A DNA stretch of 37,209 nt from an uncultured Rhodospirillales bacterium. Its GTDB lineage: Bacteria > Pseudomonadota > Alphaproteobacteria > ATCC43930 > CGMCC-115725. The position numbers and the translations under genes are program-made. Location of the stretch: positions 1 through 37,209 of the forward strand of contig CAIXXC010000299.1 in NCBI GenBank assembly GCA_903923205.1, read 5' to 3'. Numbering within the stretch: position 1 is the stretch's first letter; each line of letters opens with the position of its first letter. Positions 17,154-24,550 of this stretch are shown in pieces. The notes under the pieces were generated by a model, which saw nothing but the letters and a program-made list of their open reading frames with translations, was not told where the DNA came from and made no database searches.

Positions 17154-17600
17154 TCAACCGCTCATTGCCTCTCCGGCACTCGTCGGCCTTGATGCCGCGA
17201 TGATCTTCTCTCGCTCGGCACGTTGCTCGGGTGTCAGATCCAGGCCAAGAAGACCCGCCGCGATATTGCGATTGATCGATATCAGCGTATCGATTTTTTC
17301 CTGGTCCGGATTGGCCAGAATTTCCAACGATCTCTTGTCGACAAAGTTGGAAAGATTCAGAAGTCCCTCCCGAATTTCCCGCGGCGATGGGCAATCCGGA
17401 TCGGATTGTTCGGCCTGAATGATAGTCCACAGCCGCCAATTCAGGCGTACCGCTTCTAGGACCACGTCTCTGGCGCTGCTCTCGACCCGCACCTGGGCCA
17501 ATTTGCGTGCCGTGGTCGTCAGCCCCCAGGCCAGGGTTTCCTGCGGGCTTGCGGTTTCGAGCGCGAGGGTATGCTGTTTTGCGTATCCAACGGTGCTCAT
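17154..17600 (-). CDS. flaF: Flagellin chaperone/regulator FlaF
   Basis: FlaF is an alphaproteobacterial protein required for flagellin synthesis and secretion; with FlbT it couples flagellin translation to assembly. The 148-residue product shows the family segments SPQETLAWGLTTTARKLAQ, AVRLNWRLWTIIQAE and REGLLNLSNFVDKRS, followed by INRNIAAGL. Its ATG overlaps the pseC stop by 4 nt (ATGA), with GGTAGGA just upstream inside pseC, so translation is coupled to a glycan-synthesis enzyme. The partner flbT is about 7 kb away on the other strand. No flagellin gene is in the window. Confidence 0.92.
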   Translation of the reverse strand: MSTVGYAKQHTLALETASPQETLAWGLTTTARKLAQVRVESSARDVVLEAVRLNWRLWTIIQAEQSDPDCPSPREIREGLLNLSNFVDKRSLEILANPDQEKIDTLISINRNIAAGLLGLDLTPEQRAEREKIIAASRPTSAGEAMSG

Positions 17601-18921
17601 TTCATTCCTACCTTCATGACTTTACTTGGCGCTGAGTAGAGTTTCTGGTCCACGACGGGTGAACGGCTCGAGCTTCGTAGAGGCGTCACTGTCACGGGCG
17701 ATCTTGTTTCGCCGTTCATGACAGCGCCCAGGGCGGCAACGACGCGGATGATGTCATCCTCTGTCATTCCAACGAAGAGAGGCAGGGACAAGGTGCGAGT
17801 GTAATAGGTTTCCGCGCCCGGGAGGACAAGCGTACCGTAGCGTTTGCGATAATACGGCTGCTGATGGACGGGGATGTAATGAACCATCGTTCCAATGCCC
17901 GCCTCGCGAAGCTGCATCATAAAGCTGCCACGGTCGAGTCCAAGACGTTGAAAATCGATCAGTACAGGGAACAAATGCCACGCAGCAGTGCAGTTCTGCT
18001 TGTGCGGGATCGATGATAGGAGTTCGCGGAGCGGGGATAGTCGCGCGCGGTATATTTCTACCAGCTTCCGGCGCGCGGTGACGAAACTGTCAAGCCGGGC
18101 CAACTGGTTGAGCGCGAGCGCAGCGTGAATATCGGATAGTCTATAATTCCAGCCGAGTTCGCCCATCTCATAATACCAGGGATTGGCCGAACCTTGTCGA
18201 TCGAACGCGCGCTCCTCATCCTCGAAACGGGCCGGGTCCCGAGTCATCCCGTGACTGCGGAGGTCACGCATGCGTTGGGCCAGCGCCGCATCATTGGTAA
18301 CAACGGCACCACCTTCGCCAGCCGCGATCACCTTGACCGGATGGAAAGAGAATACCGTCATCTGCGCGAACTGGCCTGAGCCAATCGGCCGCGTGGTCCC
18401 TCGACCGTCCTGATACGCGGAACCGAGTGCGTGACAGGCATCCTCGATGACGGTAGCGCCGCGACCGCGCGCAATTGCAGCGATCGTCTCCAGATCAGGG
18501 CACTGCCCAGCCAAATCGACAACCATAACGGCCTTGACCCGACGGCCTGCGGCCTCGACACGGCTCCACGCTTCCGTAATATGCGACGACTCCATCAGCC
18601 CCGTATCGCCACTGACATCGGCGAACACGACCTCGGCACCGGTCATGCGAACCGCGTTGGCCGTCGCAAGAAAGGTGATCGATGGCACGATCGCCGTATC
18701 GCCGGGACCGAGCCCGGCGGCGAGACAGGCCAGGTGCAGCGCCGACGTACCACTCGAGCACGCGACGGCGTGTCGGGCGTCGACGCGCTCTGCCAGTGCG
18801 CCCTCAAGGGCTTCAACCTTTGGCCCCGTGGTCAGCCAATCACCACGCAGCGCTTCGGCGACAGCGGCGATATCAGTCTCGTCAATCTGCTGACGGCCAT
18901 AGGGTAGGAAGGGCCGGGACA

Positions 18922-18922
<1 letters not shown>
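17597..18922 (-). CDS. pseC: UDP-4-amino-4,6-dideoxy-N-acetyl-L-altrosamine transaminase PseC
   Basis: PseC is a PLP-dependent aminotransferase that aminates the 4-keto sugar made by PseB, the second step of pseudaminic-acid synthesis. The 441 residues begin MSRPFLPYGRQQIDETDIAAV, contain CSSGTSALHLA (55-65), IEDACHALGS and the PLP lysine in FHPVK (Lys197) followed by AGEGGAVVTN. The ATG at 18922 overlaps the pseB stop by one base (TGATG); a longer frame to 18970 lies inside pseB. After the normal end (about residue 403) there is a basic Ser/Pro/Val tail of about 38 residues that overlaps flaF by 4 nt. The other Pse genes (G, H, I, F) are not in the window. Confidence 0.9.
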
Positions 18923-20064
<1,142 letters not shown>

Positions 20065-20108: not shown

Positions 20109-21572
20109 TCACTGAATGTAATTCAATAGCGACAGATTCAGCGTCGAAGCCGTGACCTTGTAGGTCGCCTGTAATTGCGCCTGCAGCGCGCTCAACTCTT
20201 CGGCGATCGTAGCCGAGTCGATCGCCGTGATGCTCGTCGACTGTGTCGTCAATGTCGCCAGAGTCTGGGTGTGGACCGCATTCGCGTTGGTGACTTGACC
20301 TTGCGTATTTGTAACCTGTGCGAGCAACCCGCTGGAGCCGGAAAATCCTGTGACGGCACTGTTCGTGGTTGATCCATTGATGGCGTCGCTTACCAGATTG
20401 GTGGCGTTGGAGAGGTAGCTTTTTACCTGGGTTGACGTGAGGCCACTCGAGGTTGCCGCTTGCGCATTCTGGAGGGAATAGATCAGGGACTGGATGGTCG
20501 GATCGTTCGAACTGATGCCATAGCTGATGGCGGGCTCGTTTTGCGCGATCACCGCAGTCTGCTGTGCGTAAGGAGAGCCGATTGGTGTACCGAAGCCAGG
20601 CGCGGCTGCATCGTAAGCGGGTAGGGCGGAGACAGCACTGCCGCCCGAGGTGTAGGCATTTGTAAACGTCGAACCGACCAGATCGATATGGGTTGCGTCG
20701 ATCACGTTGACTGTCCAGGTGCCGTTCGCCTCTGTCGTGCCATTCACGCCGGTTACGGCGATCTGCTGTCCCGTGGTCAGGCCTGCGGTCGAGCCGACGG
20801 CAAGTCTGATAAGACCACTGCCATTATTGGCGGCACCCGAAACCGCAGTCGGTATCGGCGTGATGGGCGGGGTGGATGCGGCCACGGCGCTGCCGCCCGA
20901 CGTATAGGCATTGCTGAAAGCCGAGCCGACGAGATCGACATGGGTCGCATCGATGACGTTCACCGTCCAGGTGCCGTTCGCCTCGGTGGTGCCGTTGACA
21001 CCCGAAACCGTGATCTGTTGGCCCGACGTCAGGCCTGCCGTCGAGGCGAGGGCCAGTCTGACCAGTCCGCTCCCGTTATTGGCGGCGCCGGAAACGGTGA
21101 TGGGCGTATTCAACGGCGTGAGTGTGTTGAGGTTGGCCACGGGGGCTGTGGTATAGCGCGAGCCCGAAAAGATGTAGCGATCGCCGACCTGGGTATTGAG
21201 GGTCGCGTTGATGTCCGTTAGCAGCCCCTTGACCGTCGCCGCTAGTGTCGCGATCGAACTCGGGCTGTTGGTCTGGGTGCTGCCCAGAACTTTTTGCAAC
21301 GTGGTCGCGTCGCTCTGAAGGTGCGCAATGGTCGCGTCATAGGCCGTAAGATAGGTCTGAATGGTTGTATTATTGGCGACGTAACCCTGCTCGGTCTTTT
21401 GGCTCGCCTGCAGGTTCAACAGTGTCGAGGCGCTGCCGCCGTAGTCGGCAACGGACTGCCCGACTTGTCCCGTCGTCAATTGCTCGGACAGCTTGTTGAG
21501 CTGGCTCTGGCTGGCGGACATCAACGATTGCGTCCGCAAGAGGGTGCTGGTGGCCGTGACTGCATCGCTCAT
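20109..21572 (-). CDS. flgL: Flagellar hook-associated protein FlgL with an inserted tandem repeat
   Basis: FlgL (HAP3) joins hook to filament. N-terminal helices (1-130, SQLNKLSEQLTTGQ, HLQSDATTLQKVLG), the conserved DRYIFSGS (131-138) and C-terminal helices (about 355-487, ending in ASTLNLSLLNYIQ) are those of FlgL. At 487 residues it is longer than the usual 300-350 because of a Gly/Thr/Asn-rich insertion (about 155-320) made of two 84-residue repeats. The start (21570-21572) follows AAAGGA. It lies 15 nt after flgK, is transcribed with it, and is followed by pseB. The insertion would sit on the surface of the junction. Confidence 0.92.
   Translation of the reverse strand: MSDAVTATSTLLRTQSLMSASQSQLNKLSEQLTTGQVGQSVADYGGSASTLLNLQASQKTEQGYVANNTTIQTYLTAYDATIAHLQSDATTLQKVLGSTQTNSPSSIATLAATVKGLLTDINATLNTQVGDRYIFSGSRYTTAPVANLNTLTPLNTPITVSGAANNGSGLVRLALASTAGLTSGQQITVSGVNGTTEANGTWTVNVIDATHVDLVGSAFSNAYTSGGSAVAASTPPITPIPTAVSGAANNGSGLIRLAVGSTAGLTTGQQIAVTGVNGTTEANGTWTVNVIDATHIDLVGSTFTNAYTSGGSAVSALPAYDAAAPGFGTPIGSPYAQQTAVIAQNEPAISYGISSNDPTIQSLIYSLQNAQAATSSGLTSTQVKSYLSNATNLVSDAINGSTTNSAVTGFSGSSGLLAQVTNTQGQVTNANAVHTQTLATLTTQSTSITAIDSATIAEELSALQAQLQATYKVTASTLNLSLLNYIQ
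20631..20849 (-). repeat. Second copy of the tandem domain repeat in flgL
   Basis: Codes residues 242-314 of FlgL. By hand alignment 62 of 73 residues match the first copy (20883-21101), with a 252-bp period. Many differences between the copies are at third codon positions, so the protein rather than the DNA has been conserved since duplication. Confidence 0.92.
20883..21101 (-). repeat. First copy of the tandem domain repeat in flgL
   Basis: Codes residues 158-230 of FlgL: SGAANNGSG, STAGLTSGQQITVSGVNGTT, EANGTWTVNVIDATHVDLVG and NAYTSGGSAV in order. The pattern T-x-G-x-x-V-x-V-x-G-V-N-G...NGTWTV...D..H.DL.G....YTSGG resembles the E1 FCCH-like beta domain common in phage tail proteins. Confidence 0.92.
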
Positions 21573-21587: not shown

Positions 21588-23078
21588 TCAGACAGCTGCG
21601 AACAGCGTTTGCTGCAGCTTATCGACCGCGCCGATGATCTTGGCCGCAGCGTTGTAAGAGTTCTGCAAAACCACCAGGAGCGATAGCTGCTGGTCGAGGT
21701 TGACGCCCGATTGCGCCTGATAGCTGGTCTGAGCGGTCGAAAGATTAGTGCCTGCCGTGGTTGCCGCAGTGTGTGCCGCTGACGACCGAGACGATTGGTC
21801 TGCCGCGATGATCGTCGCGATTTGGCTCAGTGTGCCGGTCGTCGCGTTGAGGTTGGTGGTGCCACCACCGAACGTGAGGCTTTGTCCCAGCACTGCTGTC
21901 ACGGCCGGAGCGGCTGATTGCTTTATCGTCTGAATCGCGGCGTTCGGCGATACGATCGAGGTCAATGCGGGATTGACCACAAAATTGTTGGCGTCGTTCG
22001 GTGACGTCGGGGTTGCCGTATTGATGACGAACAGATTGCTCGCAAGCTCGTTGGTATTAGTCGGGCTTGCATTGTTATAGGCTGCCTGGAACGTGGTTGG
22101 CGCTCCCGGTGGTGCAACGTAGAAGAGATCGACAAAGGCATTAAGCTGCTGCTGCAACTTCGCCAATGGCGCCATTGATGGATCGGTCGACTGGATCGCG
22201 CTTGTGTCCGCGCGAAGGATGTTTAGTTGTGCGCCGATTTCGCCGCCGCTGAAGCTGCCGTTGATCGCGGTATTGTTTGGATCCGTTGTCAGATAGAGAA
22301 CGCCAGAGGTCGGTTCGCCGGCAATTGAGGTTTGGCCAGGCGCGCTGGTCGACGGATCGAAGCCGAATTGGCTGGCGGTCTGGTCCAGCAGGGTTACCCC
22401 ATCAGGCGTATAAAGATATGTGGTGCCGTCATTATTCTGCTGCTGGCGGATCGGTGCCAGCTTGGCGACCTGAGCGATTAACTGATCGCGCTGGTTTTCT
22501 TCATCGACCGAAGAGCCTCCAGCCGCTCGGGTTGATACGATCTGGTTGTTGAGTGTCTGAAGCTGGGTAAGCGCACTATTAAGCGTCTTGACGTCGCCTG
22601 TTACCCCAGACTGCGTCTGGGATCGCAGGCTCGTGATGCCGCTGGTGAGGGTCTGAACCTGTTGCACCAAATTCTGTGCCGCGCTCAAGACCTGACTCTG
22701 TGCTGTCTGGTTCTCCGGCTGGCTCTGGAATGCCTGGAACGCGTTGGCCAATTGGGTGACCGCCGTCGAGAGCACCGGGCTTGTCGTGTTCGAACCACTG
22801 AGCGCGTCGAGCTGTGCGTAGAATTGATTGACGTAGGCGGCGTTTCCCGAGGCGGTGGTCTGGCTGAGAACTTCGTTGTGCAAGGTCTGGTTGACCGCGC
22901 GCGTGACGGTGACCTTCGTGAATCCCTGCGCCTGGGGGTCCGGATTTGAGGTCGTGGCATTGAGTTGCGTGAAATTCGAGTTCTGCGAATTTCCAACATT
23001 TTCCGCGACCACGCCAAGCAGTTGCTGGGTGGTGAAAAGCGCCGATTCGGCGGCGGAAAATGGGTTGATCGTCGTCAT
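21588..23078 (-). CDS. flgK: Flagellar hook-associated protein FlgK
   Basis: FlgK (HAP1) caps the hook before filament growth. The 496 residues have the expected N-terminal helices (ALFTTQQLLGVVAENVGNSQNSNF), the FTKVTVTRAVNQTLHNEVL region, an internal coiled stretch ending in ENQRDQLIAQVAKLAPI, and the C-terminal SGVNLDQQLSLLVVLQNSYNAAAKII motif. The N-terminal helix is shifted from the canonical AxxGLxxxQxAL pattern, a variation seen in alphaproteobacteria. It is 33 nt downstream of flgE and 15 nt upstream of flgL on the same strand. Confidence 0.9.
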   Translation of the reverse strand: MTTINPFSAAESALFTTQQLLGVVAENVGNSQNSNFTQLNATTSNPDPQAQGFTKVTVTRAVNQTLHNEVLSQTTASGNAAYVNQFYAQLDALSGSNTTSPVLSTAVTQLANAFQAFQSQPENQTAQSQVLSAAQNLVQQVQTLTSGITSLRSQTQSGVTGDVKTLNSALTQLQTLNNQIVSTRAAGGSSVDEENQRDQLIAQVAKLAPIRQQQNNDGTTYLYTPDGVTLLDQTASQFGFDPSTSAPGQTSIAGEPTSGVLYLTTDPNNTAINGSFSGGEIGAQLNILRADTSAIQSTDPSMAPLAKLQQQLNAFVDLFYVAPPGAPTTFQAAYNNASPTNTNELASNLFVINTATPTSPNDANNFVVNPALTSIVSPNAAIQTIKQSAAPAVTAVLGQSLTFGGGTTNLNATTGTLSQIATIIAADQSSRSSAAHTAATTAGTNLSTAQTSYQAQSGVNLDQQLSLLVVLQNSYNAAAKIIGAVDKLQQTLFAAV

Positions 23079-23111: not shown

Positions 23112-24494
23112 TTAGGCAACGATTTGCAAGAGGGAGGTCAGAAGCTGATTAGTCGTCGAGACGACCTTGGTATTGGCGGTGTAAGCCTCCTGCGCGACGA
23201 TCAGGTTGGTGAATTGGCTTGCGATATCGACGTTCGACTGCTCGATTGCGGATGGCGAGATGGTGCCCGCGCCATTCTGCCCGGGGACACCAACCTGAGC
23301 CTGTCCGCTGGTGGAGGTCTGTTGATAGGTTTCGCCCGAAAGCGCCTGGAGGTTCTGCGCGGCATTGAACTGCGCCAGGGGGACCTGGAAATATTTCAGC
23401 GACTGGCCATTGCTGTAGTTGACCGACACGAAGCCGTTATTGTCGATGCTGACGTTTGAGAACGTACCCTGTGCCGCGCCATCCTGGGTCAAGGATTGCA
23501 CGGAGACGCTGGTGCCGGAATACTGGGTCAAGCCGGCGCTGCCGCCGTAGGTGCCAAGGTTCAGCGCGATATTTTGGGTAACGCCGGTAGCGCTCTTGAA
23601 GGGGATGGTCGCCGTGGCAGCCCCGCCGCTTGCTGCAGTTGGGATGGTCATCGCCCCCGTGACAGATTCCGGTGGTATGGCAATGTTGCTCGTATCCGTC
23701 ACACTGTAGAGCGTGCCCGCCGGGACGGTCTGGCCGGAAATTGTGTTGGTGCCGTCGCTGAATTTCAGCAAAAGCTGATAGGAGCCGGTCTGGCCCTGAA
23801 CGCCGGCTGCCGAAACATTTGCCGTCCACTGATTTGGAATCACGACCGGCGGTGAGGCGCCGTTGTTGGCGGGCGCGAAGGTCACGCTTAACGTATGGGC
23901 AACGCCCAGTGCGTCGTAGACATTGATGGTCGTCGGCGAGAACGTGCTGTTAACCGCCGCGCCTGCGGGGAGGTTTGCCGCGAGTTTCACGTTTGCCGTG
24001 GCGACCGGTGAATTGATCAACTGTGAGACCTGGATCGGCACAAGCGACGAAGTATTGGCGACGTTGGTCTGCGGGTTCACGGCATAGCCCTGCAGGTAAT
24101 ACCCCGCGCCGTTCACTAGGTAGTCATTTTGATCGAGCTGGAAGTCACCCCGCCGGGTGTAATAGGTCGACGTCGTATTGGGGCCGGTGGTTATGCCGCT
24201 GGAGGTCGGCGCCGCCACGGCAAAGAAGCCCGCATTTGAAATCGCGAGATTGGTCGCCGTCTGGCTCGACGCCAGCGTTCCGGCAATGTTGTTCTGATAG
24301 ACCGGAGTGGCAATGACGCCACCCGGCGCATTGAAATTCTGACTCGAGTTGGTGACGATTTCCTGGAACGAAGTCCCGATGCCCTTGTAACCGATCGTCT
24401 GCGAGTTCGCGACATTTTGCGAAATATTGCTGATCGCCGCCTGTTGCGCGGTAAGACCGGCGTCGGCGGTGGTAAGGGCTCCGAATAGACTCAT
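23112..24494 (-). CDS. flgE: Flagellar hook protein FlgE
   Basis: FlgE polymerises to form the hook. The 460-residue protein carries the rod/hook N-terminal signature (MSLFGALTTADAGLTAQQAA then SQNVANSQTIGYKG), the SNAGFFAVAAP and YYTRRGDFQLDQNDYLVNGAG segments, a Thr/Ala/Gly-rich variable middle, and the C-terminal SNVDIASQFTNLIVAQEAY motif. I chose the ATG at 24492-24494 because CAGGAGG lies 5 nt upstream; a start at 24521 adds nine unrelated residues. It heads the flgE-flgK-flgL-pseB-pseC-flaF run and is divergent from flbT. Confidence 0.94.
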   Translation of the reverse strand: MSLFGALTTADAGLTAQQAAISNISQNVANSQTIGYKGIGTSFQEIVTNSSQNFNAPGGVIATPVYQNNIAGTLASSQTATNLAISNAGFFAVAAPTSSGITTGPNTTSTYYTRRGDFQLDQNDYLVNGAGYYLQGYAVNPQTNVANTSSLVPIQVSQLINSPVATANVKLAANLPAGAAVNSTFSPTTINVYDALGVAHTLSVTFAPANNGASPPVVIPNQWTANVSAAGVQGQTGSYQLLLKFSDGTNTISGQTVPAGTLYSVTDTSNIAIPPESVTGAMTIPTAASGGAATATIPFKSATGVTQNIALNLGTYGGSAGLTQYSGTSVSVQSLTQDGAAQGTFSNVSIDNNGFVSVNYSNGQSLKYFQVPLAQFNAAQNLQALSGETYQQTSTSGQAQVGVPGQNGAGTISPSAIEQSNVDIASQFTNLIVAQEAYTANTKVVSTTNQLLTSLLQIVA

Positions 24495-24550
24495 CTCAAC
24501 CTCCTGAGGGCTCTGTGCCAAAGCGTTCGTCGCAAAGCGCGTTCCAGGAA

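Follow-up and report, generated by a model that had tools for sequence, protein, structure and literature searches.

Within the stretch of DNA analysed here (37,209 nucleotides from an uncultured Rhodospirillales bacterium, referred to as the window), the gene for a putative hook-filament junction protein, FlgL, contains two near-identical repeats, which raises the question of what the repeated unit is, where it came from and what it may do on a flagellum. The assignment of the gene as flgL rests on profile similarity and on its location after flgK, with matches to NCBIfam TIGR02550 (1.8e-16) and PRK08913 (1.8e-33) that both score below the curated equivalog cut-offs. The gene adjoins flgK in a flagellar cluster that includes flgK, flgE, flhB and flaF in the window, and is distinct from flagellin, two genes for which lie elsewhere in the same genome. 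On the minus strand, the gene order is flgE, flgK, flgL, pseB, pseC, flaF and flhB, with the following features:

23112-24521, minus strand: flgE-type hook protein, without the repeated domain (Pfam FlgE_D2 8.6e-12, Flg_bbr_C 1.6e-12)
21588-23078, minus strand: flgK, the upstream neighbour, without the repeated domain (Pfam FlgK_D1 4.2e-27)
20109-21572, minus strand: flgL, putative hook-filament junction protein of 487 aa (open reading frame, FlgL profiles, directly after flgK)
18922-20055, minus strand: pseB, UDP-GlcNAc 4,6-dehydratase (inverting) (TIGR03589, 524 bits, cut-off 408)
17597-18970, minus strand: pseC, pseudaminic acid synthesis transaminase (TIGR03588, 476 bits, cut-off 424)
17154-17600, minus strand: flaF, flagellar protein (Pfam FlaF 4.3e-24)

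The pair pseB and pseC (17597-20055), both over their equivalog cut-offs, lies directly downstream of flgL.

The repeated unit of FlgL

Residues 160-232 and 244-316 of FlgL are identical at 63 of 73 positions, the best 73-residue pair being found at an offset of 84, and shuffled FlgL sequences reach at most 20/73 identity in the same comparison. The first-pass annotation had described two near-identical repeats with 84-residue spacing; its hand count of 62 identities is one short, and its coordinates, 20631-21101, match the two profile matches (20631-20849 and 20883-21101) exactly. At the DNA level, the repeat covers 218 nt with 79% identity and a spacing of 252, and is the only direct repeat of at least 40 nt reported in the whole window. 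An assembly duplication artefact is ruled out, as the copies differ by 21% of nucleotides. Because these differences fall mainly at third codon positions (8/2/36 across the three positions) and dN is low relative to dS (0.069 and 1.14, dN/dS ~0.06), purifying selection on the repeat copies is supported, in line with the earlier proposal that selection has kept the protein. Another genome from this genus, that of the sister species, carries one copy in the same gene, and a GTTEANGTW core is conserved and kept in all three copies. Antisense to the repeats lies a 177-aa open frame (20688-21221, plus strand), which is a mechanical mirror of the repeat with no evidence of being a gene.

The profile and the predicted fold support the repeat unit as an E1_FCCH domain (PF16190), the first catalytic cysteine half-domain of the ubiquitin E1 enzymes UBA1 and UBA6, as the FCCH-like label of the first-pass annotation had it. 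The Pfam E1_FCCH match to FlgL (1.1e-9) falls in two stretches and reaches 38.7 bits for the whole protein, over the cut-off of 29.5, with each copy alone at 22-24 bits and below the cut-off. An AlphaFold (AF2) model of the single unit, built on an alignment (A1) that combines 69 copies taken from viral contigs, from bacterial genomes and from the window, has a pLDDT of 95.9, and the FCCH domains of UBA6 and UBA1 head its fold matches in the PDB (Foldseek TMq ~0.8; Z 11.5 and an rmsd of 1.5 Å over 74 residues). In a viral structure library, the best fold matches are uncultured Caudovirales proteins, with TMq up to 0.94. A phmmer search of the PDB found no sequence relative. In contrast to the FCCH of UBA1 and UBA6, to which sequence identity is ~20%, the FlgL units are without the E1 enzyme context and sit in tandem in an exported flagellar protein; the domain was first known from a eukaryotic ubiquitin enzyme, and is otherwise found mostly in virus tail proteins. 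Identification as an endosialidase-type lectin barrel was rejected, the fold similarity (Z 7-8.5) being near that to unrelated barrels such as EF-Tu (Z 7).

A closer look at the protein places the two units between helical parts, as follows:

21168-21572, minus strand: N-terminal helical part (D0/D1), residues 1-135, with predicted helices at 2-34, 40-62, 69-98 and 104-135
21111-21188, minus strand: linker ahead of the modules, residues 129-154, located at the conserved GDRYIFSGSRYTT motif and beyond it (pLDDT < 50)
20877-21101, minus strand: FCCH copy 1 (profile match 20883-21101, Pfam E1_FCCH 20886-21068)
20625-20849, minus strand: FCCH copy 2 (profile match 20631-20849, Pfam 20634-20816; pLDDT 95.9 for the AF2 unit model)
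20514-20618, minus strand: linker after the modules, residues 319-353 (pLDDT < 50)
20115-20573, minus strand: C-terminal helical part, residues 334-486, with predicted helices at 334-345, 358-376, 380-399, 416-449 and 453-486

The profile matches have E-values of 2.0e-34 for copy 1 and 3.2e-35 for copy 2, obtained with a query alignment (A1) that itself includes both copies. The Flagellin_N match in the N-terminal part is weak (8.7e-5, below cut-off). The AF2 model of full-length FlgL shows helices at 2-135 and 334-486 and two confident beta modules with low-confidence linkers around and between them; it is weak overall (pLDDT 72.8, pTM 0.32) and models copy 1 with little alignment support, as every phage fragment aligned to copy 2. 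The flanking linkers (residues 129-154 and 319-353) are probably flexible in view of this model, and modules and linkers alike are rich in Ser and Thr.

The pair occupies the position of the D2 domain, and it could therefore be asked whether the repeat is just the normal D2 of FlgL rather than a foreign FCCH. This is highly improbable: in other genera of the family, the FlgL proteins that were read have about 305-390 aa and lack the repeat, the Pfam and fold matches point to FCCH, and the solved D2 of Xanthomonas campestris is an eight-strand beta sandwich resembling the D2 of FlgK (PMC6155364), whereas FlgL here has two tandem units, probably on flexible linkers. A fold search with full-length FlgL returned mostly E1 FCCH matches and one weak flagellin row (3a5x), and D2 of FlgL is absent among the fold matches listed for the unit, the best of which are FCCH domains, although this still allows for some likeness to the FlgK-like sandwich. 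The repeat is not widespread among the FlgL proteins read from the family and its predicted fold is similar to FCCH, so neither of the findings that would have told against the first-pass interpretation was obtained.

Phage relatives and the history of the copies

Relatives of the unit are encoded by 173 viral stretches in IMG/VR, the best being 77% identical over the whole domain, and beyond the genus the closest sequences belong mostly to tail, neck and fibre proteins from tailed phages. Many of the 40 viral carriers scanned fall in PHROG tail, tail fibre, tail spike, head closure and virion structural families, which bears out the phage-tail resemblance noted at first. These carriers usually have one motif copy per protein, in some cases two or three, and seven phage records also hold an FCCH relative. 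Unlike the phage virion proteins, the carrier here is the product of a flagellar gene of a bacterium, located in a chromosomal cluster of such genes, among housekeeping and flagellar genes and outside any prophage; a PHROG scan of FlgL itself returned nothing significant. A resident prophage was considered as donor and set aside, as no further FCCH was found in the organism's own genome (a draft of 541 contigs), both flagellins included.

A sensitive profile finds FCCH in 3 of 43 genomes of the order: the window genome with two copies, the sister with one in FlgL, and a genome from a different genus, whose carrier protein does not seem flagellar when judged by eye. Among the sampled genomes of the order, FCCH in FlgL is therefore confined to the window genome and its sister, which agrees with the first-pass view that the arrangement is unusual for FlgL. 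At wider scope, 8 of 385 genomes of the class and 15 of 398 of the phylum carry FCCH, and none of the other carriers read looks flagellar. In one alphaproteobacterial family, proteins (L132, L149, L155, L157 and L159) have an FCCH-like domain and, by eye, an N-terminus like that of TadE/TadG-type pilus assembly proteins. FlgL of the sister species has its single copy between the same flanks and is 78% identical overall, and FlgL of a neighbouring genus has a Pro/Thr-rich linker at the insertion site.

In the FCCH tree, where most sequences are viral, both copies from the window group with that of the sister species in one clade (support 99/96), as expected from a single acquisition and a later single duplication. 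Weighing against any specific donor, no match outside the genus exceeds 77% identity, and the tree, built on 78 columns, is poorly resolved around the FlgL clade. We infer the direction, from phage to bacterium, from diversity and carrier counts alone. The sister copy groups with copy 2 (support 97/52), and a duplication before the species split, with copy 1 lost in the sister, is weakly favoured by this grouping. The dS between copies (1.14) is similar to that between species in the flanks (1.1-1.4), so that the order of duplication and speciation is not firm, dS values near or above 1 giving uncertain timing. Gene conversion or a chimeric origin of the sister copy was rejected, as the informative sites alternate (21 runs, p 0.14) with no significant block pattern.

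FCCH domains in hook and pilus proteins

Searching GTDB contigs with the unit finds FCCH in the hook protein FlgE of two genomes, and a class-level search adds a third, all of them Desulfobacterota-type:

L118:4443-6116: FlgE with FCCH
L122:4413-6074: FlgE with FCCH
L136:598-2280, minus strand: FlgE with FCCH

In all three, the domain is a clean insertion of about 75 residues between D1 and D2. The FlgE proteins of close relatives (L166, L167 and L168) are without it and their flanks are 74-83% identical; at the boundary, '...NSSAGS-NTALS...' in L166 corresponds to '...DSSASG[FCCH]NLPNTALSS...' in L118. In the tree, the copies from FlgE are separate from those of FlgL. In the order of the FlgE carriers, FCCH occurs in 9 of 389 genomes, and in three of the nine it is in FlgE. 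FCCH also adjoins a PilY1 beta-propeller in three PilY1/PilC-type pilus proteins from Desulfobacterota-type genomes (L137, L138 and L140). Two open frames of about 1600 aa (L148 and L150) have FCCH adjoining a bacteriophage endosialidase beta-barrel domain (PF12195).

FCCH thus looks like a plug-in surface module common to phage tails and bacterial appendages. A more far-reaching reading, in which the domain is mobile between phage tails and bacterial machines and entered FlgL, FlgE and PilY1 by independent clean insertions for a common surface-binding or docking function, is possible but tentative.

A candidate surface module at the hook-filament junction

In solved structures, FlgL forms an 11-subunit layer under the filament (PMC12221982). 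Where FlgL has a D2 domain, this interrupts the helical body and lies on the outer side in the assembly model; some species do without it, as in the one-domain FlgL of Bacillus cereus compared to the two-domain FlgL of X. campestris (PMC6155364). The FlgL described here is similar to that of X. campestris, and to that of Campylobacter jejuni with its bulky D2, in having an accessory beta domain between helical halves, and in those two proteins D2 is exposed outward in the models (PMC6155364; PMC12221982). A precedent for a foreign folded domain in a surface region of a flagellar axial protein is flagellinolysin, a metallopeptidase inserted in the hypervariable region of flagellin (PMC5595980; PMC7643111); flagellinolysin is an enzyme in flagellin, whereas the FlgL insert is presumably a non-enzymatic beta module in a junction protein.

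The explanation we favour, and consider reasonably probable, is that FlgL in this genus gained FCCH from the phage pool, that the domain was duplicated in tandem and that the pair stands in for D2 as an outward collar. An E1_FCCH-type beta module would probably have been gained from a pool present in the virion proteins of tailed phages, and the acquired unit would then have been duplicated in tandem. The resulting pair would lie between the two conserved helical halves, where FlgL of other species carries D2 or a short linker. If the 11-mer holds here, a ring with two modules per subunit would form a collar of ~22 small beta domains. The modules would be held on flexible tethers and probably face outward at the hook-filament junction in place of D2, an outward projection being plausible because of the position of the insert and the homologous structures. 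Their role, we infer, is most likely that of accessory modules at the surface, either packing against their neighbours or binding some surface ligand.

The modules might instead be inert bulk, inserted neutrally where the surface tolerates additions, duplicated by chance and giving only spacing or steric shielding. Some species have a working FlgL without D2 (PMC6155364), in the neighbouring genus a variable Pro/Thr-rich linker takes up the insertion site, and copy number varies between the two sister species. However, the low dN/dS between the copies and the GTTEANGTW core shared by all three indicate that the fold is maintained, and comparable insertions arose in FlgE and PilY1; upkeep of the fold could also stem from a need for export without aggregation. 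On balance we regard inert bulk as unlikely, though it merits some weight.

A narrower form of the favoured surface-module explanation has the modules as adhesins or carbohydrate-binding units that stick the flagellum to a surface glycan or particle. Carriers of FCCH include tail fibres, spikes and PilY1-type pilus proteins, and two have the domain adjoining the endosialidase barrel. Many others are of neck, tube or head-closure type, where binding to host glycans is unlikely, and the fold match to phage endosialidase is close to that of EF-Tu. Adhesion is thus a possible but doubtful function.

A further proposal is that the modules are platforms for glycosylation with pseudaminic acid, by enzymes that include those of the adjacent pseB and pseC. 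The presence of both equivalogs directly downstream of flgL and the Ser/Thr-rich modules and linkers would fit such a use, and glycosylation of the flagellum in this organism is plausible from these neighbours, with no link to FlgL itself. The usual target of pseudaminic acid glycosylation is flagellin, which this genome encodes in separate genes that lack FCCH; the same sequence features of FCCH are also present in phage proteins. We consider this proposal quite improbable.

Insertion of domains in the outer regions of flagellar proteins is known, and phage-type FCCH in FlgL, FlgE or PilY1-type proteins was not found in the literature searched, where open-access papers gave no report of FCCH in flagellar proteins. 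The occurrence of FCCH across FlgL, FlgE, PilY1 and phage tails is a more interesting result than the FlgL case alone. A natural comparison is at hand in closely related FlgE proteins that differ in having or lacking the insert, together with FlgL proteins with zero, one or two copies; it could show what the module contributes to an appendage that rotates, and whether phages and bacterial appendages are built from a common stock of parts.
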